Below are positions 21,591 through 39,057 of a DNA stretch of 45,293 nucleotides, piece by piece (position 1 is the stretch's first letter; every line of letters begins with the position of its first letter). The notes under the pieces are model-generated. The model searched no databases, was not told the origin of the DNA, and saw nothing but the letters and a program-made list of their open reading frames with translations. The stretch is from a virus. The stretch lies in the IMG/VR virus record IMGVR_UViG_3300008050_008594, positions 1 to 45,293 of that record. One strand, 5' to 3'. A program made the position numbers and the translations under genes.

Positions 21591-22403
21591 TCAGCTAGTG
21601 CTCCAGTCTATAAATTGTTCGTAAATGGTTGTTGCCGTGGGGTGCCAGTCGCTACTGCTATCAAATAGCACAGGAGTCTGTAGAGGGTTCCAGTTTAGCT
21701 CGTACCGGATTTTATTATTTGGGATGGACCAAACAACATGAGGGAGCGCGCATAAACTGACTAAATGCATCGGACCGGAGGAGGGACCAAATGCACACTC
21801 GGCGTTATGAAGTGTATCGAAGAGGTCTCCTAAGGGGATATCACGCAGATCGTCGGTGCCCTCGATTAAGGCAGATTCCGCTTTAGTCCCGATGCATGCA
21901 ATCCGTTTGTCCCCTAGTAATCTTTTTAACTCGCTCCAGTTTTCTAGAGACCAATTGTCTTCCTCTCTAAGTTTACGATCTCGGGCGTGAAAAATATAAT
22001 CATACTTCCGCGGGGCTTTCTTCCCATATGCAACGTATTCTGGGGCAATCATATAGTCCCCTATCATTAGGTACTGCTCATAATGAGTGTAGGGAGGGAA
22101 TCCTAGCCGTTTAGGGACAAAGAGGGTTGTCTCTTTATCCATTCGAATCTGGTTTCCCATTATCACTTTTTTTAATTCCTGTACAAAATCTAGATTGTGC
22201 ATGAAAAAGGAGTCTGTGAGTCCGCCGGCGGGCATGTGTCCGACAAATTGGTCACTGAAGTCTGAGTATAGTGCTTCAGAGCCCGGACGAGAGATTATAG
22301 TAGTGTGGTCAAAATTGCGAGATAAGGCACGCACGTACGCCTGCCATGCAAATAGCTCCCAGCCGAACTCACCTACCCACGGACCGGCGATCAGCTTTTT
22401 CAT
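21591..22403 (-). CDS. Putative GT9-like glycosyltransferase
   Basis: This is a 270-residue protein beginning 'KKLIAGPWVGEFGWELFAWQ', a Gly-rich turn followed by aromatic residues. The C-terminal part has 'ECAFGPSSGPMHLVSLCALPHVVW', which resembles the acceptor/donor loop 'GnDSGpmHlAaAlg.P' of ADP-heptose:LPS heptosyltransferases (GT9, GT-B fold). The protein is smaller than standard GT9 enzymes (about 320-350). In a cluster that also encodes heptose activation, a heptosyltransferase-like role is attractive but not proved. Its ATG overlaps the neighbouring glycosyltransferase stop by 4 bases. Confidence 0.65.
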   Translation of the reverse strand: MKKLIAGPWVGEFGWELFAWQAYVRALSRNFDHTTIISRPGSEALYSDFSDQFVGHMPAGGLTDSFFMHNLDFVQELKKVIMGNQIRMDKETTLFVPKRLGFPPYTHYEQYLMIGDYMIAPEYVAYGKKAPRKYDYIFHARDRKLREEDNWSLENWSELKRLLGDKRIACIGTKAESALIEGTDDLRDIPLGDLFDTLHNAECAFGPSSGPMHLVSLCALPHVVWSIPNNKIRYELNWNPLQTPVLFDSSSDWHPTATTIYEQFIDWSTS

Positions 22404-23107
22404 CCGTATACTCTTTCGTAATCCAATTGAGCTTGGTGCATCTTATTGCGGGCTGCGCCCTCATCGAACACTCCTCTACCCGCATAGTGAATAATGTGTG
22501 AGTCAAAGCGGTTGGGTGAGTCGTTCCAGCTTTCAGAATACATCGTCATGTGATTAAACTGATAGGAAAGTTCGTGAACCTTATACCCATACTTATTTAT
22601 GAGGTACCCAATATGAATATCATCTGTTCCCCATGCAACGAAATATTGATCATTAATTTTACGATAGATATCCCGATGGCACTTAGAAGTAACAAACACC
22701 CCCGTATTAATATATCCAGACGTCCATCCGATCTCTCCAAATTGTTGCTGCGCGGCAAGCATGCACTGGTGGCGTTGTGGGGCGCGGGTACCTATGTCTT
22801 CGTAAATCGAACCTACACTGTCATAGGGGACAACGTCAAATAGATTGGGTAGTGATGGCATCAGGATCATGTCAGTATCCAAAGCTATAATCCGATCATA
22901 GTGCTCGTGTAAATCATAGTGCTTCAGGATTCGGTACTGATACACTCCGTTGCCGATTCCTCCGGTAGCACCTTTGGCGTCGGTGGCTTCGTCAAGTACA
23001 AGAAAGTCTGCTCCGATTCGGTGCGCATATTGTTGGAATAGCGGGTGGACAAGTTTGGCCCACTCCCAGCTAGTATTATCTGCTCTAGTAGTCAGCAACA
23101 ACTTCAT
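22400..23107 (-). CDS. Putative GT-A glycosyltransferase (GT8-like)
   Basis: This 235-residue protein has a GT-A layout. The motif 'RIIALDTDMILMPSLPNLFD' (about residues 68-88) holds the D-x-D metal/nucleotide site. 'SGYINTGVFV' is the typical second-half loop of GT8-like enzymes, and 'NHMTMYSESWNDSPNRFDSHIIHYAG' near the end places His residues where GT8 enzymes hold a metal ligand. It probably transfers a sugar from a nucleotide donor in the cytoplasm. A strong AAGGAG in the end of rmlA precedes... the adjoining gene pair: the rmlA stop lies immediately beside this gene's ATG side, with no gap at 23107/23108. The acceptor is unknown. Confidence 0.7.
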   Translation of the reverse strand: MKLLLTTRADNTSWEWAKLVHPLFQQYAHRIGADFLVLDEATDAKGATGGIGNGVYQYRILKHYDLHEHYDRIIALDTDMILMPSLPNLFDVVPYDSVGSIYEDIGTRAPQRHQCMLAAQQQFGEIGWTSGYINTGVFVTSKCHRDIYRKINDQYFVAWGTDDIHIGYLINKYGYKVHELSYQFNHMTMYSESWNDSPNRFDSHIIHYAGRGVFDEGAARNKMHQAQLDYERVYG

Positions 23108-24777: not shown

Positions 24778-26169
24778 TTAAGTTTCGGTCGTTGTCTTGG
24801 GGCGCTCAAGCTGTACTACGGTCGGTTGAGGTGCTGGCATTTTAACATTATTAACATTTGTTCCAATCGGGGTGGACGTCGACTGTTTTTCTAGTTCTCG
24901 CATGTCGCCGAAGCCTCCGCCTTGTGAGGAATCCTCTTGGCGTTCGCAAAGCAATAAATCATATTTGGTTTTAAAATAGGCTTGTTGCGCTTTCAACTCG
25001 ATATTGGTGAAGTGCTCAGTGCACCAAAAGTCGTTAGAATATTCATCAGCCTTTTCCCAATCTACATTTTGATGTAGCTCCGGCTTATAAAGGTCGGTTC
25101 CCGGATAGGGGCACAATATTGTGAACCCGACGACATCTGGATCGATCTCATCTATTAGTTCTTCAGTGAGTAATAGGTCTGCCCGGGTCTCGTTTGGCAT
25201 GCCAAAGAGGAAGAAGCCCCTTCGTTCGACGCCATGTTTCTTGGCCCAAGCAAACACATTCTTTACACTTTTAATCGTGAGACCTTTTTTGATATCTCTC
25301 AGGATTCGTGCACTGCCGGTCTCGACACCAATATTAACCTGATTGCACTGTGCCAACTTAAGCCACTTGAACATTTCTTCATTGGCAAAGGTAGCATGAA
25401 TGAGGCATTCCCACTCTGTTGTCATGCCCCTCTTAATCTTTTCTTTACAAAACTCAATAACAAAATCTGCTGTGATATCAAATGTTGCATCAACGAACTT
25501 AAAATAGTTTAGATCCAATTCTTCAATAACGTGCTCAATTTCATCACACATGTCTAGAACAGGTCGCGAGCGGATTGGATTATCACGGCGATTCCGGGTT
25601 CCGGTTATTACTCGTTCTGCACAAAACGCACAAGCTACGGGACACACCCGGTTGCACTGAAAGGAGGCTGTTCTCTTTCCGTTCATTGTTTCACACAGAT
25701 CCACTGTTCTATAGTTTTTGATAATCTGTCGATCCGGCCATGGGAGATCGAGCATCGACGGCTTTGTGCCCTGTACGATGGGGTCAGTATTACCGTTAAC
25801 AACATCTAGAAAAACTTCTTCTCCTTCTCCAATTACCACCTGATCGACAAACGGATGCGCGGCGGATTCTTGTGGGAGTGCAGACGGATGCCATCCTCCG
25901 AACACAGTTCGAGTGGACGGGCTTACTTCCTTAATAGCCCCTGCCAAACGCAACGCATGCGGCCATGCAGGAGAGGTACAGGAAAACCCGACTACATCGG
26001 CTCCTATACACGCTTCCACAATAGTTTCATCTGTGTCAAAGTTTCCCTGATAACATCGTAGATCCAATTCTCCTTCGTGGTACTTTTTCAGATACCCCGC
26101 AATAAACCCTAACCCAATAGGTTCCCAGATATTTTCATAATAGGGCTGTATTAAAATAACCTTTTTCAT
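24778..26169 (-). CDS. Radical SAM enzyme with B12-binding-type N-terminal domain
   Basis: This is a 463-residue protein. Residues 1-130 form a cobalamin-binding-type Rossmann domain: 'PIGLGFIAGYLKKY', 'VVGFSCTSPAWPHALRLA', 'TVFGGWHPSALPQE', 'VIGEGEEVF'. The classic D-x-H-x-x-G base-off motif is not evident. Residues about 165-390 are a radical SAM barrel whose 4Fe-4S cluster motif C-x3-C-x2-C is C176, C180, C183. The last 55 residues are disordered and Gln/Thr/Pro-rich. Class B members methylate unactivated carbons or rearrange carbon skeletons, often in natural-product or O-antigen clusters. It overlaps the mini-DegT gene by 4 bases, which suggests a coupled job on an unusual sugar or small molecule. 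The substrate is unknown. Confidence 0.85.
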   Translation of the reverse strand: MKKVILIQPYYENIWEPIGLGFIAGYLKKYHEGELDLRCYQGNFDTDETIVEACIGADVVGFSCTSPAWPHALRLAGAIKEVSPSTRTVFGGWHPSALPQESAAHPFVDQVVIGEGEEVFLDVVNGNTDPIVQGTKPSMLDLPWPDRQIIKNYRTVDLCETMNGKRTASFQCNRVCPVACAFCAERVITGTRNRRDNPIRSRPVLDMCDEIEHVIEELDLNYFKFVDATFDITADFVIEFCKEKIKRGMTTEWECLIHATFANEEMFKWLKLAQCNQVNIGVETGSARILRDIKKGLTIKSVKNVFAWAKKHGVERRGFFLFGMPNETRADLLLTEELIDEIDPDVVGFTILCPYPGTDLYKPELHQNVDWEKADEYSNDFWCTEHFTNIELKAQQAYFKTKYDLLLCERQEDSSQGGGFGDMRELEKQSTSTPIGTNVNNVKMPAPQPTVVQLERPKTTTET

Positions 26170-26801
26170 CGGTTTCCCTCCGTATATACTTTATATTTAG
26201 ATAGATCTTGGTATTCAATTTCCAGATCTTCATTTTCATCTTTTATGCCCAGCATCAAAACGGCGCCTCTAGCGGCTATTTCTGGAAGCATGTAGTAATT
26301 CCAGCCGAGCATGTCAAACTCTTCGACTTTATGGTCTACCGGGCGGCGGCCGAAATAGGCGGCTCGCTTCAGCCAGTCATAAGTTTCCTTGCTGTCGGTT
26401 AAAATCATACCACCCTTCCCCAACTTCAAAAACTTGTGGGGGCCGCTGAACGAAAGACACTGGAGTTGTCCTGGTATATACATGTTTCGGCTGAATGTGA
26501 GAGCGCTGTCCCAGATAGGATAGGGCTCAAGCTGATACTGACCACGGAGCCTCTTACCATCAACAATGGACGGATGAGATTTGTCAAATTTGACCTTGTT
26601 ACCCGCATGAATAATTGCACACGGAACGGACATAAATGTAACCGCGGGGATGGTAATCTCCTGATCTTCTATCCCCAAATATTTCATGCACAAAAATAAT
26701 CCATTTGTTGCATTATCAACTGCTACCGCATAGGGCGCCCCGCAATACTCAGCTATTAGTTCTTCAAAAGTAGTGATGACTTGATATGGATTGTGTTTCA
26801 T
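26166..26801 (-). CDS. Ultra-compact DegT/DnrJ/EryC1-type PLP protein
   Basis: This is a 211-residue relative of DegT aminotransferases (usual 360-400). Visible family elements are 'PYAVAVDNATNGLFLCMKYLG', 'ITIPAVTFMSVPCAI', D98 in 'IWDSALTF', PLP-lysine K123 in 'SFSGPHKFLKLGKGGMI', and 'WNYYMLPEIAARGAVLML'. About 70 residues are missing between the cofactor-stacking region and D98, and nearly all of the C-terminal domain is absent. The frame is clean and the ends overlap neighbours normally, so it looks like a compact gene rather than a decayed one. It may be a stripped aminotransferase, a dehydratase-like enzyme or a partner of the adjacent radical SAM enzyme. A candidate promoter lies just upstream. 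Confidence 0.75.
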   Translation of the reverse strand: MKHNPYQVITTFEELIAEYCGAPYAVAVDNATNGLFLCMKYLGIEDQEITIPAVTFMSVPCAIIHAGNKVKFDKSHPSIVDGKRLRGQYQLEPYPIWDSALTFSRNMYIPGQLQCLSFSGPHKFLKLGKGGMILTDSKETYDWLKRAAYFGRRPVDHKVEEFDMLGWNYYMLPEIAARGAVLMLGIKDENEDLEIEYQDLSKYKVYTEGNR

Positions 26802-26824
26802 TATTTTTCCTTTTTGCTTTATAT

Positions 26825-26853
26825 ATTATAATGGATCTCATACAATGTTTAAA
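26825..26853 (-). promoter_or_regulatory. Candidate sigma-70-type promoter for mini-DegT/radical SAM genes
   Basis: On the minus strand a -35-like TTTAAA (26848-26853) and a perfect -10 TATAAT (26825-26830) are separated by 17 bases. They straddle the stop of the hydroxyacid dehydrogenase gene and the 36-base gap before the mini-DegT ATG. AAAGGA follows at the ribosome-site distance. This is the best promoter match seen in the island and could give early, host-sigma-driven expression of the genes from 26801 downwards. Confidence 0.4.
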
Positions 26854-27782
26854 GGTGTTCTCCCTTTCAATATACGCAGTGCATTAGTTGCCGCTTTTAC
26901 TCTCATCTCCTCAATAGCCTCTACGGAGTAGTAAGCCGTATGTGGATTAATAATAAGGCGATCCCTAATCCAACCTAAGCTCGATCGCCAATCATTTATC
27001 AAGGGGCTAGTAATCGGGGGTTCCTCCGGGAGGACGTCCAAGGCTATCTTAGATATTTTTTTAGACTTTAATCCGTCGTATAAGACATCCAAGCTTTCTA
27101 TCAGATCACCTCGTGCAGTATTAACCAATATCGAGTCGTCTTTCATGCACTCTATAAATTCTTTATTTATCATCCCCCTCGTTTCGTCATTGCTGGGTAC
27201 GTGTACTGACACAATATCTGATGCGCTCAACAAGTCCTCCAAGGATTCCATCCGCTGCACACCGTGCAACTTTTCAATTCCACTCGGCTGATACTTATCA
27301 TAAAAAACAATGTTGAACTTTAAAGCTTTGGCTTTTTGAATTAGTGATCCTCCTATTCGCCCTGCGCCGATTATTCCTAGTGTCATCTCTGAGTGTCTTC
27401 GAACTGTGGGTATAACGTTCTCTTGCCATGTGTTATATAAGCATTTTGCCCTTTCGTTGTAACTGGTCGTGCCGCGGGTGAAATTTAAAATCATAGACAA
27501 TGCCGTATCGGATACCTCGTCTACTCCATAATCAGGGTTGTTGCAACATACAATCCCCCGCGATTTAAGGTAGTCAATATCTAAATTGTCGAAGCCGACG
27601 CCGTATCTCTGTACTCCTTTTAAGTGAGGCATATCTTTAATATAGTCTTCATCGATTATATCGTGCCAGACTATGAGGACTTCGGTCTCTTCTGTAGCCT
27701 CTACCCCCACTAAATTGCCCAAAATACGTGTTTCCGGGGGGCCCGGGGCTGAAAAATAATCCGTTATAACTATCTTTGACAC
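26838..27782 (-). CDS. D-isomer-specific 2-hydroxyacid dehydrogenase
   Basis: This is a 314-residue, full-length member of the family (SerA/PdxB/CtBP type). The NAD-binding motif is 'LGIIGAGRIGGSLIQKA' (135-151). The catalytic triad is intact: R224 in 'NTARGDLI', E254 in 'DVLPEEPP', H281 in 'NPHTAYYS'. It interconverts a D-2-hydroxyacid and a 2-oxoacid with NAD(H). The start is GTG at 27782 with an excellent GAGGTGG seven bases upstream, inside the end of the FAH gene. It lies in an AT-rich block with FAH, cytidylyltransferase, GAPDH-like and HAD genes, so its substrate is probably an intermediate of that pathway, possibly a phosphorylated aldonic acid. That last point is inference. Confidence 0.9.
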   Translation of the reverse strand: MSKIVITDYFSAPGPPETRILGNLVGVEATEETEVLIVWHDIIDEDYIKDMPHLKGVQRYGVGFDNLDIDYLKSRGIVCCNNPDYGVDEVSDTALSMILNFTRGTTSYNERAKCLYNTWQENVIPTVRRHSEMTLGIIGAGRIGGSLIQKAKALKFNIVFYDKYQPSGIEKLHGVQRMESLEDLLSASDIVSVHVPSNDETRGMINKEFIECMKDDSILVNTARGDLIESLDVLYDGLKSKKISKIALDVLPEEPPITSPLINDWRSSLGWIRDRLIINPHTAYYSVEAIEEMRVKAATNALRILKGRTPLNIV

Positions 27783-27784
27783 TT

Positions 27785-28402
27785 TTAGACCACCTCAAAT
27801 CGTAATTCAAGTTTATCATCAAGTGTGTGTAACACTCTGTCCCCACGTTGCAATATATTGTTTTCTACGCCGGCGGGCGTTCCCGTTAAGATAAGGTCTC
27901 CCCGCTTAAGCTCAGTTATTCTTGATATATAAGATATAGATTCCAATAAGTTGTATTTCATGTCCTTCGTGTTTCCCTCTTGAGTAAGTTTTCCGTTTAT
28001 AAAAGTACGGAGCACGAATTCTGAGGATTGGTCTAGAATCGTAGGCGAAAGGTACTCTTCCACCACTGGGCAGAAGTTTTTTCGGCTTTTTGAAAACGCT
28101 AAGTGATGATCGCGGTGATGGACATTCTGACAAGTGAGGTCCGCTCCCAGAGTAACTCCAAGAATGACTTCCATAACGGCGGACGCTTCCACATTGTGGC
28201 ATTCCTCACTAATAAAAACTGCCAGCTCGGGCTCTGTCCAAAACTGATTTGATAGTTGAGGATATTCAACATGACTATTACTAAAACACATTGCATTTAA
28301 CGATTTAACAAAATATAGTGGATCTTGTGAGTTATCCCCCACTCCCCTATAATTTAGAGCTAAACAGTGGATATTCTCAGTTATTGGGAGAGCATGCTTC
28401 AA
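27785..28402 (-). CDS. Fumarylacetoacetate hydrolase-family enzyme
   Basis: This is a 205-residue FAH-fold enzyme of the short FAHD/HpcE class. The start region 'IHCLALNYRGVG' followed by 'PLYFVKSLNAMCFSNSHVEYP' matches 'IxCxGxNYxxH..P..F.Kp..'. 'EPELAVFI' gives the metal-binding E-x-E, 'TLGADLTCQNV' the metal-binding Asp, and 'GDLILTGTPAGVENNILQRGD' the C-terminal signature. Family reactions on 2-oxoacids include acylpyruvate hydrolysis, oxaloacetate decarboxylation, hydration and dehydration of 2-keto-3-deoxy acids. The start is TTG at 28402, overlapping the upstream stop as TTGA; no in-frame ATG fits the family. A phage copy inside a sugar cluster is unusual. Confidence 0.88.
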   Translation of the reverse strand: MKHALPITENIHCLALNYRGVGDNSQDPLYFVKSLNAMCFSNSHVEYPQLSNQFWTEPELAVFISEECHNVEASAVMEVILGVTLGADLTCQNVHHRDHHLAFSKSRKNFCPVVEEYLSPTILDQSSEFVLRTFINGKLTQEGNTKDMKYNLLESISYISRITELKRGDLILTGTPAGVENNILQRGDRVLHTLDDKLELRFEVV

Positions 28403-29151
28403 TTAGAAATGTCCCTACCGGAATCAATGAGCGGCTGTATTATTGGATCGTACTCTTTCGAAAACTCATTAGAAGATTGAGCTTCCATAAATTGAGACAT
28501 AAACTCTGCCAGTTGAAAGTCCTCTTCGTAATCGATATCTATGGAGCCTATGCCGCTTGTTTCAAAAAAACCCAAGGTCCCAGTATATAGTCCCCATTGA
28601 TGCTTCTCATAATTTTGTCGATATTTCTCACAATTAATTATTGTTATAGCAAAATTCAATGCCAGTAAGGGCTCCAAATCCTGCGACCTTGGATGCTGCC
28701 CGTCGCGGTCGAAATTAACCGGGATCCCTTGATAAAAACAATGAGTCTGAATTCTCTCGCATGACAAGAGGGTATCGCAGTCACCATTTCTATACTGCTC
28801 CCATGCGCGATCATATTCATCGGACGTCACAAACGGAGACGTAGGATTTACAATTGCCAGGTAGTCTGCATCTGTATGCAACACAAAATCATAAATATAA
28901 TCATCTATCAACGATTCACTGGTAGCTAGTTCTGGTCTTCTTTTATAAAATTTAACTGACTCGCGAAGAGCTACCTGCTCATACAGTTCTGAGTCTGAAT
29001 TAATACAGATGTCAGAGAAGTAGGCAGTCTCCTTGAGGGCATCTATACAATAAGAAATGAGGGGCTTCTTATTAAGCAGCCGCAAACTCTTTCCTGTGAC
29101 CCTTTTACTTCCTAACCGAGCTGGGACCAGAGCTACTAATTTATTTTCCAT
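28399..29151 (-). CDS. CMP-sugar-acid synthetase-like cytidylyltransferase
   Basis: This is a 250-residue protein of the NeuA/KdsB/PseF family. 'LVALVPARLGSKRVTGKSLR' is the CTP-binding opening. 'NKKPLISYCIDAL' and 'ICINSDSELY' follow as usual. 'IDIDYEEDFQLAEFM' near the C-terminus carries the metal-binding Asp residues of acylneuraminate cytidylyltransferases. The enzyme activates a 2-keto-3-deoxy acid (sialic-like or Kdo-like) with CTP. No NeuB-type synthase is recognised in the window, so the acid's identity is open. A strong GAGGGG lies in the end of the GAPDH-like gene upstream. The TGA stop overlaps the FAH start. Confidence 0.87.
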   Translation of the reverse strand: MENKLVALVPARLGSKRVTGKSLRLLNKKPLISYCIDALKETAYFSDICINSDSELYEQVALRESVKFYKRRPELATSESLIDDYIYDFVLHTDADYLAIVNPTSPFVTSDEYDRAWEQYRNGDCDTLLSCERIQTHCFYQGIPVNFDRDGQHPRSQDLEPLLALNFAITIINCEKYRQNYEKHQWGLYTGTLGFFETSGIGSIDIDYEEDFQLAEFMSQFMEAQSSNEFSKEYDPIIQPLIDSGRDISN

Positions 29152-29156
29152 ATATT

Positions 29157-30218
29157 TTACCCCTCGAGCAAGTCATTGACATACTTAACCTGCTCAACAA
29201 CTTTCCCAGCATAACCATACTCGTTATCATACCACAAAACTACTTTTATAAGATTGTCCCCGATGACACTAGTCCATCTGTTATCTACAATCGCGGAATA
29301 ATCTATCTGCTTAAAATCCAAAGACACCAGGGGCTCGATATTATTCTTAATAATTTGCCACTTCTGTTTCTCTTCATATTCTGTAAGACAGGCTATTAAA
29401 GCGTCACATGTAACCGATGTCGCGACGTTTAAGGTAACATCTGCGCTACCAACTATGGCAGTAGGAGTTCGATAGGAAAATGACCCGATCATTTCCTCGG
29501 TTATATTATGGCGCTTGAGAACATTGCAAGTTTGGGTAACTGCTGTTGTGGGCTTCGGAATCATATTCCCAATGGCCGTACGGCCCAATGCATAATGATG
29601 ATAAATCTCTCCCGGAACTGACCAGGAACTAGCGGGCCCATCTTGCAGATTTTGATAACTTAACCAAGGATGCAACGTCGTTATATAGCCATTTGTTATC
29701 TTATACTTATCATTTATCAATTTCAACACGGGAGCAATAGCAGTAGCATCACAAATACTAGTAGAAATTAAAAAATGCTCATCGAGATTTAACTCTTCCT
29801 CGTTAGCTCCCAATACTAACTGAAAATCTACGATGTCCGGGGAGTGGGTTACAAAAACTCTTTTGATCTTCTTTCGACTTAGGATTTTTCTCGCTCTAAC
29901 AACATTTTCATACACTCCGGAAGCATCGATGATATAATCAAGATCATGATCCTCCCATGGCACTTCGTCTATGTTTTTACAGTTATAGATGGCTATACGA
30001 TAATTACCACTAACAAGAATCGTATCATCAACTTTGAATTTGAATGGAGAAGGATATAGAGTGTCATAATTTAGAGTATAAGCTAAATTATGCGCATCAG
30101 GATTAATGTCATTTATAACCTTAACGTCAAGGAATTCTTTATAATGATTATTTCGTAATATAGCTCTCCCAATACGCCCAAGGCCATTGATTCCTACTTT
30201 TATTTTTTCCCTTGTCAT
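29157..30218 (-). CDS. GAPDH-family aldehyde dehydrogenase, altered active-site signature
   Basis: This is a 353-residue protein with the complete glyceraldehyde-3-phosphate dehydrogenase architecture. 'VGINGLGRIGRAIL' (8-21) binds NAD. Cys156 and His183 occupy the catalytic positions. 'YRTPTAIVGSADVTLNV' holds the conserved Arg250, and 'LWYDNEYGYAGKVVEQV' is the C-terminal hallmark. The catalytic-site sequence is CDATA instead of the near-universal CTTNC, and the phosphate loop around residues 190-225 is rewritten ('SSWSVPGEIYHHYALGRT'). It probably oxidises a different aldehyde, perhaps a sugar phosphate such as erythrose-4-phosphate, or catalyses a non-phosphorylating reaction. Location among sugar-acid genes argues against a plain glycolytic role. 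The ATG has AAGGA about 12 bases upstream. Confidence 0.9.
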   Translation of the reverse strand: MTREKIKVGINGLGRIGRAILRNNHYKEFLDVKVINDINPDAHNLAYTLNYDTLYPSPFKFKVDDTILVSGNYRIAIYNCKNIDEVPWEDHDLDYIIDASGVYENVVRARKILSRKKIKRVFVTHSPDIVDFQLVLGANEEELNLDEHFLISTSICDATAIAPVLKLINDKYKITNGYITTLHPWLSYQNLQDGPASSWSVPGEIYHHYALGRTAIGNMIPKPTTAVTQTCNVLKRHNITEEMIGSFSYRTPTAIVGSADVTLNVATSVTCDALIACLTEYEEKQKWQIIKNNIEPLVSLDFKQIDYSAIVDNRWTSVIGDNLIKVVLWYDNEYGYAGKVVEQVKYVNDLLEG

Positions 30219-30243
30219 GCGATATAAGCGTCCTTATGAGTTA

Positions 30244-30858
30244 TTATAATAAATCTATGAAATTCTCTACAACCTGATCGTCGGTACTTAAAAACTTGAA
30301 TGGCGGCGCCTCCTGCGTCAGTCCCTTCATGAAGATGAAGTTGACCCCACTCCCGGTCGCGGCTAAACAATCGTAACGCGAGTCTCCTATAAAAAAATCA
30401 TGGGGGCGCCTTTCTATATTTTTCAAATGTTCAATCTTAGTTGTGGGGGCGGAGAGTATCTCATAAAAATAATCCCTTATACCCTGTTTCTCTAAATATT
30501 CTTCTATTTCTTCTCGGCTTCCACCAGAGAGAATATACACCGTGTCGTTAGAATTTTTCTTTAAGAACCGTATGAGACCTGTGTTTAGTGGAGCATCTAA
30601 AAGATTTACATTTAATTTTGTATACTCCTCTAAAATCTTTTCTGTTGGAACTTGCATATCTTCTTTAAAAAATTCTTTGGTTTTTAGGTCGCGCGGGAGG
30701 CCGTTGTTGGCGATGAAATATTCTCTAAATGCTCGTGCTGTTTTCTTGTCCACATACAACGCTGCCGCGGCTTCTATGTTTCCCTTCTTTATCTCATTAG
30801 AATCGCATATTACTCCATCAAAGTCAATAAAAATATTTTTATTTTCTATATCTAACAT
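30244..30858 (-). CDS. HAD-superfamily phosphatase (phosphoglycolate-phosphatase-like)
   Basis: This is a 204-residue HAD hydrolase with all core motifs. Motif I is 'NIFIDFDGVICDSNE' (nucleophile and acid Asp), with a helical cap at residues about 18-85. Motif II is 'VYILSGGS', the conserved Lys is in 'TTKIEHL', and motif IV is 'DFFIGDSRYDCLAA'. It would remove phosphate from a small sugar or acid phosphate. It is the first gene of the AT-rich block with GAPDH-like, cytidylyltransferase, FAH and hydroxyacid dehydrogenase genes. A dephosphorylation step before CMP activation, as in Kdo and sialic acid pathways, is a natural reading. It overlaps the DUF115-like gene by 7 bases. Confidence 0.87.
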   Translation of the reverse strand: MLDIENKNIFIDFDGVICDSNEIKKGNIEAAAALYVDKKTARAFREYFIANNGLPRDLKTKEFFKEDMQVPTEKILEEYTKLNVNLLDAPLNTGLIRFLKKNSNDTVYILSGGSREEIEEYLEKQGIRDYFYEILSAPTTKIEHLKNIERRPHDFFIGDSRYDCLAATGSGVNFIFMKGLTQEAPPFKFLSTDDQVVENFIDLL

Positions 30859-31580
30859 ATTGTCTCCTTAAGCTGAGCCTCTGGAAATATATCAAGGGCC
30901 ACCGGATTAATACTGCAAATTTGTACATCAGGATAGTTCTGCCCGATCCACTCTTTTACCTGTTTCCAGTATCTCAAAATATAATAATCAGCCTGCTGTT
31001 GTTTACCAATCATAATCTTTGCAAAAGTTCCATTGGTGTAATCACAATCATGTCCTACCAAGTAGATCTTTTGTATTCCACAGTATAACATAAATTGCAG
31101 CACTTCAAAAGAGATAGATGCTACAGCTGTCAGATGACCCTCGGCAATGTCCTTTTTGAACAGACATGTCTCTGGGTTTCCGCCGCTTCCGGCTACATAA
31201 TACTTAGAGTTTTTCATTCCCAGCGGAAGCTGCCCATTGCGAGCCACCTGTCCATACGGAGGTACGATGATTTTTCTGTCATCTTTCCAATCGCAGAAAC
31301 GGATAAACTTTTGAAGCTTAGGGGTATAGTTGTTATATAGATGCAGCCGATCCCAAAACTTAGCAGGGACTTGAGGGACGGAGTCACCCATAAACCAATA
31401 ATCTAAATCTAAATCTAGAAAAATCTGATCATTGACTCCAAAGCGCAAAACATTATCCGGAAGATTGGTAGTGTCGAACTGAAGTAGTGAGGGTCCCGAG
31501 CCGAAGAGGACGCCAGAGCGACCTAGGTGACTGTTTTTATAATCACCAAATGGGTTCTTAATATCAGCCGGAGCTATCAT
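30852..31580 (-). CDS. DUF115/GT42-like putative glycosyltransferase
   Basis: This is a 242-residue protein with 'SGVLFGSGPSLLQFD' near residue 22, 'RFGVNDQIFLDLDLDYWFMGDS' after it, and 'FMLYCGIQKIYLVGHDCDYTNG' in the second half. The G-x-G-P-S-L start, the 'N..' second motif and the C-terminal 'GxD..Y' are the layout shared by DUF115 (flagellar Maf-like) proteins and GT42 sialyltransferases. GT42 enzymes use CMP-activated donors. A CMP-sugar synthetase lies two genes downstream, so this is the best candidate for the transferase that uses its product. Family membership is by pattern; activity is inferred. Confidence 0.65.
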   Translation of the reverse strand: MIAPADIKNPFGDYKNSHLGRSGVLFGSGPSLLQFDTTNLPDNVLRFGVNDQIFLDLDLDYWFMGDSVPQVPAKFWDRLHLYNNYTPKLQKFIRFCDWKDDRKIIVPPYGQVARNGQLPLGMKNSKYYVAGSGGNPETCLFKKDIAEGHLTAVASISFEVLQFMLYCGIQKIYLVGHDCDYTNGTFAKIMIGKQQQADYYILRYWKQVKEWIGQNYPDVQICSINPVALDIFPEAQLKETIC

Positions 31581-37968: not shown

Positions 37969-38272
37969 TATCGTTTATTCCCTTATCGTCAATATAAAAA
38001 TTGCCTGCGGGCTTCCCCATAAACAAGCGATGGTATTTTACTCCCCAAGCACGGAGTTGGTCTTGTGTCAGTTCAAAAAAGCTAGCATAGGCAAAGGCAG
38101 GGGAATTTTTACTTCGTCCCATTCCTCGCGCTGTATGGAAAATGATGGTGTGGCCTGCATCGTAGAGTTGATTAACTTTGTCTATTCTCTCTTGCATGGG
38201 GACGGAATTCTCATAATCGCTGTTTTCGTTATGGCAAATGGTGCCGTCGATATCAAACACATAAGTTATCAT
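37949..38272 (-). CDS. Small HAD hydrolase of capsule-cluster type
   Basis: This is a 107-residue minimal HAD protein without cap. Motif I is 'TYVFDIDGTICHNE', motif II 'IIFHTARGMGRS', and 'GKPAGNFYIDDKGIND' holds the last acidic motif. This compact form resembles capsule-biosynthesis phosphatases rather than GmhB (about 190 residues). It could still perform the bisphosphate dephosphorylation of the heptose pathway, since it sits directly next to the heptose kinase with a 4-base overlap. That assignment is by position only. Confidence 0.8.
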   Translation of the reverse strand: MITYVFDIDGTICHNENSDYENSVPMQERIDKVNQLYDAGHTIIFHTARGMGRSKNSPAFAYASFFELTQDQLRAWGVKYHRLFMGKPAGNFYIDDKGINDNDFFTN

Positions 38273-39057
38273 CTTAAGCTTCTCACATCTTCCTCTGTGA
38301 TACTATAGGTTCCAAATCGCTGCACTACAATTCTAGAGCACTTATTGGCAAAATCTATAGCTTTTTCGAGCGATTTCGTTTTAAGGTATTCGGCCACCAG
38401 AGCAGCCAAGAAAGTATCACCTGCGCCAGAGACATCAAACACCTCGCAGGGCTTCGTCCCAAACTGTACCCCGTTCCACCTTGCGCCAGCGGCGCCAAGT
38501 GTTACCACTAGCTCATACTTTATAGGGTATCGGGCCGTCTCGTGGAACTCTTTCTCATTTATCTTGAGAATGGCGCCCTCAAAACAGCTTAAATCCTTTT
38601 TTTTCGAATCCACGAAAAGAGGAATCTTATGTTCTAGGCATCTCTTCGCGATATCATCAGCATTTTCTTCAGTTATAAAGCCCTTGTTGTAATCGGATAT
38701 AACCACCGCATCATAGGTTTCTAAATTAAGGCGCTGGGTGGCGCCTTTACTCAAGGGGCGCTGGGCCCCAGTTTCGCCAACGTCGAAGCGGAGAAGATGT
38801 TGCTTTGTTTTAAGATCTACAAAACGCTCTTTAGAAATAATGCCGGTGTTATGTTTCTTATCTGGCCGAATGCCAAAAGAAATAAGATTACGCACCACAT
38901 TTAAACACATCCCATCGTGTTCTTCAGTATGGTTGTGTCGCAAAACAGGCACAGGTGCCTCTGGACTCAGTCGTTCACAGTGTCCATAATGATATTTATC
39001 AATGCAAGCATCACCTATTACGATGACCTTCAATGATTCTGGTTGTTGAATATCCAT
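38269..39057 (-). CDS. hldA: Shortened HldA/HldE-type heptose kinase (PfkB family)
   Basis: This is a 262-residue PfkB kinase. 'VIVIGDACIDKYHYGHCERLSPEAPVPVL' is the characteristic N-terminus of D-glycero-D-manno-heptose-7-phosphate kinases. 'FDVSGAGDTFLAALV' holds catalytic D214. The enzyme is about 50 residues shorter than the HldE kinase domain: after 'NLISFGI' the usual loop is missing and 'KHNTGIISKERFVDLKTKQHLLRFD' follows at once. The Gly-Gly substrate motif reads DGM. The start at 39057 has AGAGGA upstream, so the 47-base overlap with the nucleotidyltransferase gene appears real. Confidence 0.82.
   Translation of the reverse strand: MDIQQPESLKVIVIGDACIDKYHYGHCERLSPEAPVPVLRHNHTEEHDGMCLNVVRNLISFGIRPDKKHNTGIISKERFVDLKTKQHLLRFDVGETGAQRPLSKGATQRLNLETYDAVVISDYNKGFITEENADDIAKRCLEHKIPLFVDSKKKDLSCFEGAILKINEKEFHETARYPIKYELVVTLGAAGARWNGVQFGTKPCEVFDVSGAGDTFLAALVAEYLKTKSLEKAIDFANKCSRIVVQRFGTYSITEEDVRSLR

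Follow-up and report, generated by a model that had tools for sequence, protein, structure and literature searches.

A phage gene cassette that may make a CMP-activated 2-ulosonic acid without a NeuB- or KdsA-type synthase

Introduction

The well-known ulosonic acids activated with cytidine monophosphate (CMP), namely neuraminic (Neu), pseudaminic (Pse), legionaminic (Leg) and 3-deoxy-manno-octulosonic (Kdo) acid, are made by NeuB- or KdsA-type synthases that depend on phosphoenolpyruvate (PEP). Here we analyze a five-gene cassette in IMG/VR virus record IMGVR_UViG_3300008050_008594, studied as one stretch of 45,293 nucleotides (the 45 kb window; coordinates without a locus label are window positions). 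The cassette encodes a HAD-family phosphatase, a GAPDH homologue, a CMP transferase or cytidylyltransferase (CMPt), an FAH-family enzyme and a D-2-hydroxyacid dehydrogenase (HADH). We put at about 0.58 the probability that this exchangeable cassette makes a CMP-activated 2-ulosonic acid without a NeuB- or KdsA-type synthase, for an adjacent glycosyltransferase of predicted sialyltransferase fold. No title or abstract opening in the literature searched describes this gene set, which is weak evidence of novelty as the coverage was partial.

The Kdo pathway (KdsD, KdsA, KdsC, KdsB) ends with a HAD phosphatase and a CMP transferase, as here, and an alternative phage cassette described below, consisting of a SIS protein, HAD and CMPt (in some viruses with FAH), mirrors KdsD, KdsC and KdsB. 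In contrast, the GAPDH and HADH of the window have no counterpart in that pathway, the CMPt reaches 34.2 bits against a KdsB-type cut-off of 193, the HAD protein has no KdsC match, and no KdsA/DAHP-synthase family match (PF00793) occurs in 11 virus records (the window record and ten others). The nonulosonic acid pathways (NeuB/NeuA, PseI/PseF) resemble the locus in that its CMPt is closest to PseF and NeuA and that neighboring glycosyltransferases are modelled with sialyltransferase folds. They differ in their other precursor enzymes and in their synthase, as NeuB (PF03102) is also unmatched in the 11 virus records, and the CMPt scores 73.8 bits against a PseF cut-off of 205.7, so that a NeuA/PseF-type assignment holds at superfamily level only. 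Finally, vitamin B6 synthesis has an Epd-PdxB branch, in which an aldose phosphate is turned by way of an aldonate phosphate into a 2-oxo acid by a GAPDH homologue together with a D-2-hydroxyacid dehydrogenase. The same chemical logic would apply to the GAPDH and HADH of the cassette, although these proteins fall below the family cut-offs, the GAPDH phosphate sites are altered, and the genes are linked to a CMPt and glycosyltransferases.

Gene layout and proposed route

All five open reading frames lie consecutively on the minus strand, and Pfam agrees with the family that a sequence-only reading had given to each:

30244..30858, minus strand: HAD-family phosphatase, first cassette gene (204 aa; Pfam HAD_2 2.9e-9)
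29157..30218, minus strand: GAPDH homologue of a distinct subfamily (353 aa; Pfam Gp_dh_N 2.8e-21, Gp_dh_C 3.2e-22)
28399..29151, minus strand: NeuA/PseF-like CMPt (250 aa; Pfam CTP_transf_3 1.9e-20)
27785..28402, minus strand: FAH-family enzyme without the FAHD1 lid stretch (205 aa; Pfam FAA_hydrolase 7.9e-37)
26838..27782, minus strand: CtBP/PGDH-like HADH, last cassette gene (314 aa; Pfam 2-Hacid_dh_C 3.8e-42)

Successive genes are separated by +25, +5, -4 and +2 bases (the CMPt and FAH genes overlap by 4), a tight spacing that suggests one transcript. GC content is 0.403 in the block and 0.445 and 0.426 in its flanks. None of the five proteins reaches an NCBIfam cut-off (PGDH, for example, 188.7 bits against 454), and PHROGs assigns a function to a single cassette gene, as a HAD hydrolase. 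The closest solved chain for HADH is CtBP (1hku, 1.7e-41), and the best solved-structure matches of the CMPt are NeuA-type enzymes. Elsewhere in the window PHROGs detects a baseplate wedge subunit (1.8e-21) as well as a late sigma factor (6.1e-6), from which we read the window as probably that of a T4-like phage. The setting is a long glycan-gene island with epimerases, RmlA/RmlB-like genes, aminotransferases, glycosyltransferases and CMPt.

In the proposed route, the GAPDH homologue would oxidize a small aldose phosphate at C1 to the acid, HADH would oxidize C2 to yield a 2-oxo acid, and the HAD phosphatase would remove the phosphate. The FAH enzyme, or an HpcH/HpaI aldolase in other clusters, would rework or extend the carbon chain through metal-bound 2-oxo-acid enolate chemistry, and the CMPt would couple the product to CMP. 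We infer the substrate, the step order, the FAH reaction and the product.

The cassette recurs in distant bacteria

Co-occurrence of the five genes elsewhere had been set beforehand as a test, and the same five-gene neighborhood, in the window's order of HAD, GAPDH, CMPt, FAH and HADH, was found in two Cryomorphaceae-type genomes (loci L024 and L026) at 34-60% protein identity. Recurrence of the same order at such identity indicates that the five genes are a real unit, beyond chance. Locus L022 has GAPDH-CMPt-FAH-HADH, and L020 has all five genes on two strands. Across 26 loci of the GAPDH subfamily, HADH occurs in 21, a CMPt in 21 (that of L035 being KdsB-type) and the HAD profile in 14; L004, L019, L023 and L028 lie on contigs of 5.5-8 kb. 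The set of 26 leaves out L021 (partial), L031 (reading frame mis-called), L050 (a near-copy of L073), L037 (35%, an ordinary GAPDH), L002, L003, L014 and L015 (the same phage or a close relative), L005-L013 (ordinary GAPDHs or a fragment) and the short or repeat loci L038-L049, which are covered by L024, L026-L029, L020, L033 or L069-L073. At L031, GAPDH stands next to HADH, with a 36% FAH on the opposite strand.

Carriers include Prochlorococcus, Bacteroidetes (among them Cryomorphaceae and Owenweeksia), SAR86, Pelagibacter, Myxococcota, a Heimdallarchaeota bin and others. The subfamily was found in 4 of 395 genomes of the phylum of L024 and 1 of 398 of that of L029, and, by family, in 3 of 300 (L020), 3 of 88 (L024) and 4 of 40 (L029). 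These counts include the genomes that supplied the queries; newly found were G096 and G156 (L024 phylum), G888 and G965 (L020 family) and G1202 and G1203 (L029 family), with no new genomes in the L029 phylum or the L024 family. Such a patchy spread is as expected of accessory glycan islands.

In viral contigs, the GAPDH scan returned two records at 99-100% (the window's phage or a close relative), L004 at 50%, where the gene adjoins a cytidylyltransferase, and nine at 27-38% that we read as ordinary GAPDHs or a fragment. With a piece of the profile that singles out this GAPDH, viral contigs yielded L016 (64%) and public genomes yielded 21 loci, including L037. A scan of viral contigs for the CMPt subfamily gave just two records, both from the window's phage or its close relative. 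A phage collection yielded 26 GAPDH records, all below 30% identity among the 20 listed, and one CMPt match at 23%; plasmids contained no match to the L027 GAPDH at E 1e-60.

Cassette exchange among related phages

The genes that border the cassette are not exchanged:

30852..31580, minus strand: protein of predicted sialyltransferase/Maf fold, border gene just upstream (AlphaFold model, Foldseek, VIA-align)
26166..26801, minus strand: short DegT-type gene, 3' border of the cassette (211 aa; Pfam DegT 2.8e-19)

The upstream gene had no match at E 1e-5 among 50,697 phage records and led to six loci of related phages, L063-L068. At L063, L064 and L065 both flanking genes match the window (68-72% for the upstream gene, 80-84% for the DegT-type gene), and the slot between them contains a different CMPt and a relative of SIS isomerases, with a small domain, HAD in our reading, either fused to the latter or coming next. 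DNA similarity between the window and L063 covers 31451-30946, is lost across all five genes and resumes at 26811; the same break is found with L064 and L065, where similarity resumes at 26816 and 26801, respectively. A second group of viruses (L052-L056, L058 and L059) encodes a SIS protein followed by a CMPt and an FAH. In the L054 protein Pfam recognizes a SIS domain, and we read the second half as HAD from a motif in the translation. Since SIS and CMPt sets occupy the slot in L063-L065 and occur with FAH in the second group, the block is one of several interchangeable cassettes that share a CMPt.

This clean exchange in three related phages, together with the conserved order in bacteria, bears out the earlier view of the block as a unit. 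The five genes might instead be merely co-located, each serving a different sugar pathway, as the surrounding epimerases, RmlA/RmlB-like genes and aminotransferases of the long island could suggest. We regard this as very improbable, given the same families and order in distant bacteria, the exchange as a single block in phages and the co-inheritance of the CMPt with FAH or aldolase described below.

Two observations concern these phage loci. The second virus group shares the window's FAH subfamily and has a Kdo-like layout (for example L054:6395-8630), with no KdsA-type synthase in the L052, L054 and L056 records. Although about half the usual length, the DegT-type gene is retained in related as well as distant phages (80-84% in L063-L065, 55% in L056, 47% in L067 and L068) and therefore appears to be a genuine short form, not a disrupted gene.

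A GAPDH subfamily with altered phosphate sites

The GAPDH subfamily carries the signature SICDATAIAP..TTLHPWLSYQN..PGE..LGR..NMIPKPT, and its profile scores at least 165.9 bits in 20 of 20 genomes as against at most 63.5 for other GAPDHs of the same genomes. Catalytic residues had been called intact throughout the cassette. For GAPDH this stood in part: all 26 members retain Cys156 and His183, along with Arg250, Asn332 and Tyr336, but four phosphate-site residues are replaced, with Ile155, Asp157, Leu186 and Tyr188 standing in all 26 where Ser148, Thr150, Thr179 and Asp181 belong. The classical numbering and the roles of the two phosphate sites are here assumed, with residues aligned to solved GAPDHs. 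Lys222, Arg213 and Thr224 are also invariant; in all, 12 active-site positions do not vary in the 26 aligned sequences, and three further positions in an insert do. Ten extra residues precede Arg213 in the GAPDHs of the window and L004 compared with the ordinary GAPDH of L005, and the family alignment places an extra stretch there in other subfamily members.

With the catalytic Cys and His present and the canonical phosphate-site residues replaced, the protein does not look like a phosphorylating GAPDH. As an acid (Asp157) stands right beside the catalytic Cys where a phosphate-binding Thr would be, the enzyme may hydrolyse its intermediate to the acid rather than give an acyl phosphate.

These features also bear on a non-glycan metabolic role, in which the cassette would boost host vitamin B6, serine or triose metabolism during infection, in keeping with its Epd-like and PdxB/PGDH-like family matches. 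Such a role is quite improbable: GAPDH reaches 156.9 bits against the Epd cut-off of 539 (NF010058) and 144.2 against 530.55 (TIGR01532), HADH reaches 85 bits against 434 for PdxB (NF001309), the phosphate-site replacements extend to the whole subfamily set, and the cassette sits among glycosyltransferase, epimerase and CMPt genes. Epd/PdxB or PGDH metabolism was dropped as a candidate on the scores and the altered phosphate sites.

A separate clade of the subfamily (L032, L033 and L036) lacks HADH and an adjacent CMPt. In L032:2216-4380 and L033:9554-11718 its GAPDH lies beside a DHQ-synthase-like cyclase and an SDR, which hints at another pathway using this GAPDH.

FAH and HpcH/HpaI alternate at one slot

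The FAH enzyme shares its Pfam family with FAHD1 and HpaG and keeps E57, E59, D88 and K105 (invariant in four members), which we take to be metal ligands, so that for these residues the earlier call of an intact site stood. It did not stand for the lid: the profile of four members is shorter than FAHD1 where FAHD1 carries the stretch NYADHVREM, which presumably holds the catalytic His-Glu pair. The short lid loop is shared by 8 of 9 members (L035 is three residues longer), and the motifs NIHCLALNY and RDHHL, a further difference from FAHD1/HpaG, are conserved in 8 of 9 aligned members. Absence of the FAHD1 lid stretch therefore makes ordinary C-C hydrolysis unlikely for this subfamily.

Class II pyruvate aldolases of the HpcH/HpaI type (HpaI, GarL, YfaU) stand immediately 3' of the CMPt in 8 of the 26 GAPDH loci, in the slot that FAH holds in the window; FAH lies beside the CMPt in 7 (counting the larger FAH of L030 and a gap of 257 bases in L022). 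Aldolases were called with PF03328 for L018 and with our own profile for the loci beyond L016, L018 and L027, and extra copies away from the cassette CMPt (L020:11402-12154 and L029:4330-5094) are outside the count. Those of L016, L018 and L027 score 126.8-146.8 bits for HpaI (cut-off 368.8) and 110.2-143.9 for GarL (cut-off 406.75). Neither the window record nor the 71 kb record of a close relative has an HpcH/HpaI match. FAH and HpcH/HpaI have unrelated folds, and both handle 2-oxo acids as metal-bound enolates; because of this shared chemistry, finding either of them in a single slot is consistent with a C-C reaction whose substrate is a 2-oxo acid. The earlier proposal that FAH hydrates or trims the carbon skeleton is thereby weakened, the aldolase in sister clusters suggesting a pyruvate-type C-C reaction.

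Labelling loci as FAH, HpcH or neither gave 4 changes on the CMPt tree (shuffled mean 9.6; as low in 0 of 200 shuffles) and 7 scattered changes on the GAPDH tree (shuffled mean 8.8; as low in 18 of 200). The trees were built by a quick method with SH-aLRT support only, and near-copies favor clustering. Labels cover 19 of 26 GAPDH rows and 21 of 28 CMPt rows, with L035, whose transferase is KdsB-type, on the GAPDH tree only; three of eight FAH-bearing viruses outside the window's group are included (L052, L053 and L056), the rest being near-copies or lacking a CMPt (L057). The label thus clusters on one tree and scatters on the other, which argues that the CMPt goes with FAH or HpcH and that GAPDH combines with either. 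We read this as two modules, in which a common front end (GAPDH, HADH and HAD) would produce a 2-oxo acid and alternative back ends (FAH or aldolase with a matching CMPt) would set the final sugar. Extended to a modular, NeuB/KdsA-free route to CMP-2-ulosonic acids, with a GAPDH/CtBP-like pair, interchangeable FAH or HpcH/HpaI and matching CMPts, all passed around among marine bacteria and T4-like phages as a cassette for swapping sugars beside a sialyltransferase-fold enzyme, the reading becomes tentative, its chances a little short of even.

Neighbors of predicted sialyltransferase fold

Pfam assigns no family to the upstream gene or to several cluster genes, and a phmmer search of solved structures with the upstream gene returned a single, irrelevant match (E 0.22). 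In a Foldseek search with its AlphaFold model, ranks 1-10 are all Campylobacter jejuni Cst-II (best E 6.2e-5, TM-score 0.50) and rank 11 is Maf. VIA-align gave Z 12.2 for Maf (rmsd 4.2, 199 residues), 10.8 for an archaeal HPPK, 10.6 for Cst-II (187 residues) and 10.1 for a Pasteurella sialyltransferase. A GT42/Maf fold is thus predicted for the upstream gene, whose product is a possible user of the cassette's CMP donor.

The gene directly after HADH in L024 (model pLDDT 86.6) has a Foldseek match to a bacterial polysialyltransferase (E 6.1e-10). VIA-align gives Z 22.0 for the polysialyltransferase (rmsd 5.1, 316 residues) and 16.6 for the next family, UDP-GlcNAc 2-epimerase, and Pfam PF07388 scores 20.3 bits, below its cut-off of 23.3. 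Relatives of this gene occupy the same place in L025 and L026 and lie between GAPDH and HADH in L017. The same cassette has neighbors with two different predicted sialyltransferase-type folds, one in the phage and one in L024, which favors an acidic sugar donor activated with CMP and agrees with the earlier assignment of the block to glycan chemistry.

One HpcH-type cassette is directly followed by an MptE-like (Maf-related) gene at L027:14077-14865 (67.3 bits), and its GAPDH is directly preceded by a weaker MptE-like match at L027:8568-9548 (18.9 bits, under the cut-off); these are a possible further link to CMP-sugar transferases.

Synthases in phages and hosts

The sequence-only reading had seen no NeuB- or KdsA-type synthase. 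This stood for the phage, as neither the 45 kb record nor the 71 kb record of the close relative, which is 94% identical to the window over 17 kb of DNA, has a match to either family; a standard NeuB or KdsA pathway in the phage was dropped as a candidate on the count of 0 in 11 virus records. In bacteria, NeuB lies about 1.5-17 kb from the GAPDH piece on the same contig in 8 of the 15 genomes searched.

That proximity raises the alternative that the cassette plays an accessory part in the ordinary metabolism of nonulosonic acids or Kdo, its CMPt activating a host NeuB or KdsA product while the other enzymes modify the sugar or supply a precursor. The likeness of the CMPt to PseF and NeuA agrees with this, as does L035, where NeuB is about 1.5 kb from the GAPDH piece and KdsB-like transferases are present. 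Set against it, the NeuB part of the L017 and L025 islands carries its own second CMPt, no NeuB was matched in the draft genomes G003, G014 and G018, and in G006, which has GAPDH-CMPt-FAH-HADH, the sole NeuB match is 39 bits at the place of a 266-bit DAHP-synthase match. NeuB lies on another contig in G007, G011 and G015. With the virus records negative and the CMPt sequence type following FAH or HpcH, we judge the accessory role unlikely.

Alternatively, the product might be a small acid of the glycerate or erythronate type, with a hydroxy or oxo group, that is joined to CMP by an ordinary hydroxyl or by a phosphonate and is transferred as a charged decoration other than an ulosonic acid. GAPDH and HADH do resemble the Epd/PdxB and PGDH families, which act on C3-C4 compounds, and PMC6697681 reports nucleotidyltransferases for phosphonates. 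PEP mutase, on the other hand, had no match in any of six virus records, and although 13 of 20 bacterial genomes have a match, just one is on the contig of GAPDH (G156), about 198 kb away; the predicted sialyltransferase-fold neighbors point to a CMP-ulosonic donor. A small-acid product is accordingly more doubtful still than the accessory role. The phosphonate pathway was dropped, no PEP mutase lying near the cassette.

Several findings weigh against an ulosonic acid route free of NeuB and KdsA. The absence of these synthases from virus records is not proof, because the records, four of them below 42 kb, may all be fragments. Besides the nearby NeuB genes in bacteria, the only CMPt of L018 within the 14.8 kb read lies inside the cassette, as the accessory role would have it, and in some hosts the cassette may support nonulosonic acid synthesis. 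HADH is absent from 5 of the 26 loci; two of these, L004 and L028, end at a contig edge, and at the other three, L032, L033 and L036, the gene is truly missing. Nor does every locus have the C-C step, since L017, L025, L034 and L072 have neither FAH nor an adjacent HpcH within the stretch read; such loci may activate the unmodified 2-oxo acid or rely on an enzyme whose gene lies at another place (other FAH genes occur in G001 and G009, with no HpcH match). The alternative cassette of L063-L065 likewise has no visible C-C step, as FAH and HpcH are unmatched anywhere in those records (G1238-G1240), and another relative, L066, has a different arrangement around the slot. Known NeuA-type enzymes act on a hemiketal, which a C4 2-oxo acid is not known to form, and a substrate of the Epd/PdxB kind would therefore have to be lengthened first. 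Lastly, the model of the upstream gene is of modest confidence (mean pLDDT 77.0; 18 residues below 50), its fold is not limited to glycosyltransferases because the archaeal pterin kinase HPPK shares it, and non-sialyl GT-B enzymes as well as NeuC-type epimerases are further matches of the L024 model.

With these points taken into account, the original idea of a route to a CMP-activated acid appears partly supported and considerably stronger after the comparative evidence. If true, it would extend the activated acidic sugars of phages and of ocean bacteria (Prochlorococcus, SAR86, Pelagibacter and Bacteroidota) by a new class, and both may have a means of surface decoration that is so far undescribed. 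At one place in related phages, the two alternative CMP-sugar cassettes form a natural experiment in which function is directly testable.

Further genes in the islands

A B12-binding radical SAM gene of the window (24778-26169) has a 58% counterpart at L022:7365-8636, about 1 kb upstream of GAPDH in a bacterial genome, and the same region holds counterparts of the upstream sialyltransferase-fold gene (40%) and of window gene 22400-23107 (41%); because of these shared genes, more than five may travel together. A PfkB-family carbohydrate kinase lies at 38269-39057 within the phage glycan island. At L069:4829-7079, a GFO/IDH-type oxidoreductase, a SIS isomerase and another CMPt form a second possible cassette in the same island. 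In L073:8184-12933, from the family of L029 (SAR86), a SIS isomerase directly precedes GAPDH in a cluster of GAPDH, one further gene, CMPt, HpcH and HADH, and from this position the isomerase may supply the GAPDH substrate.

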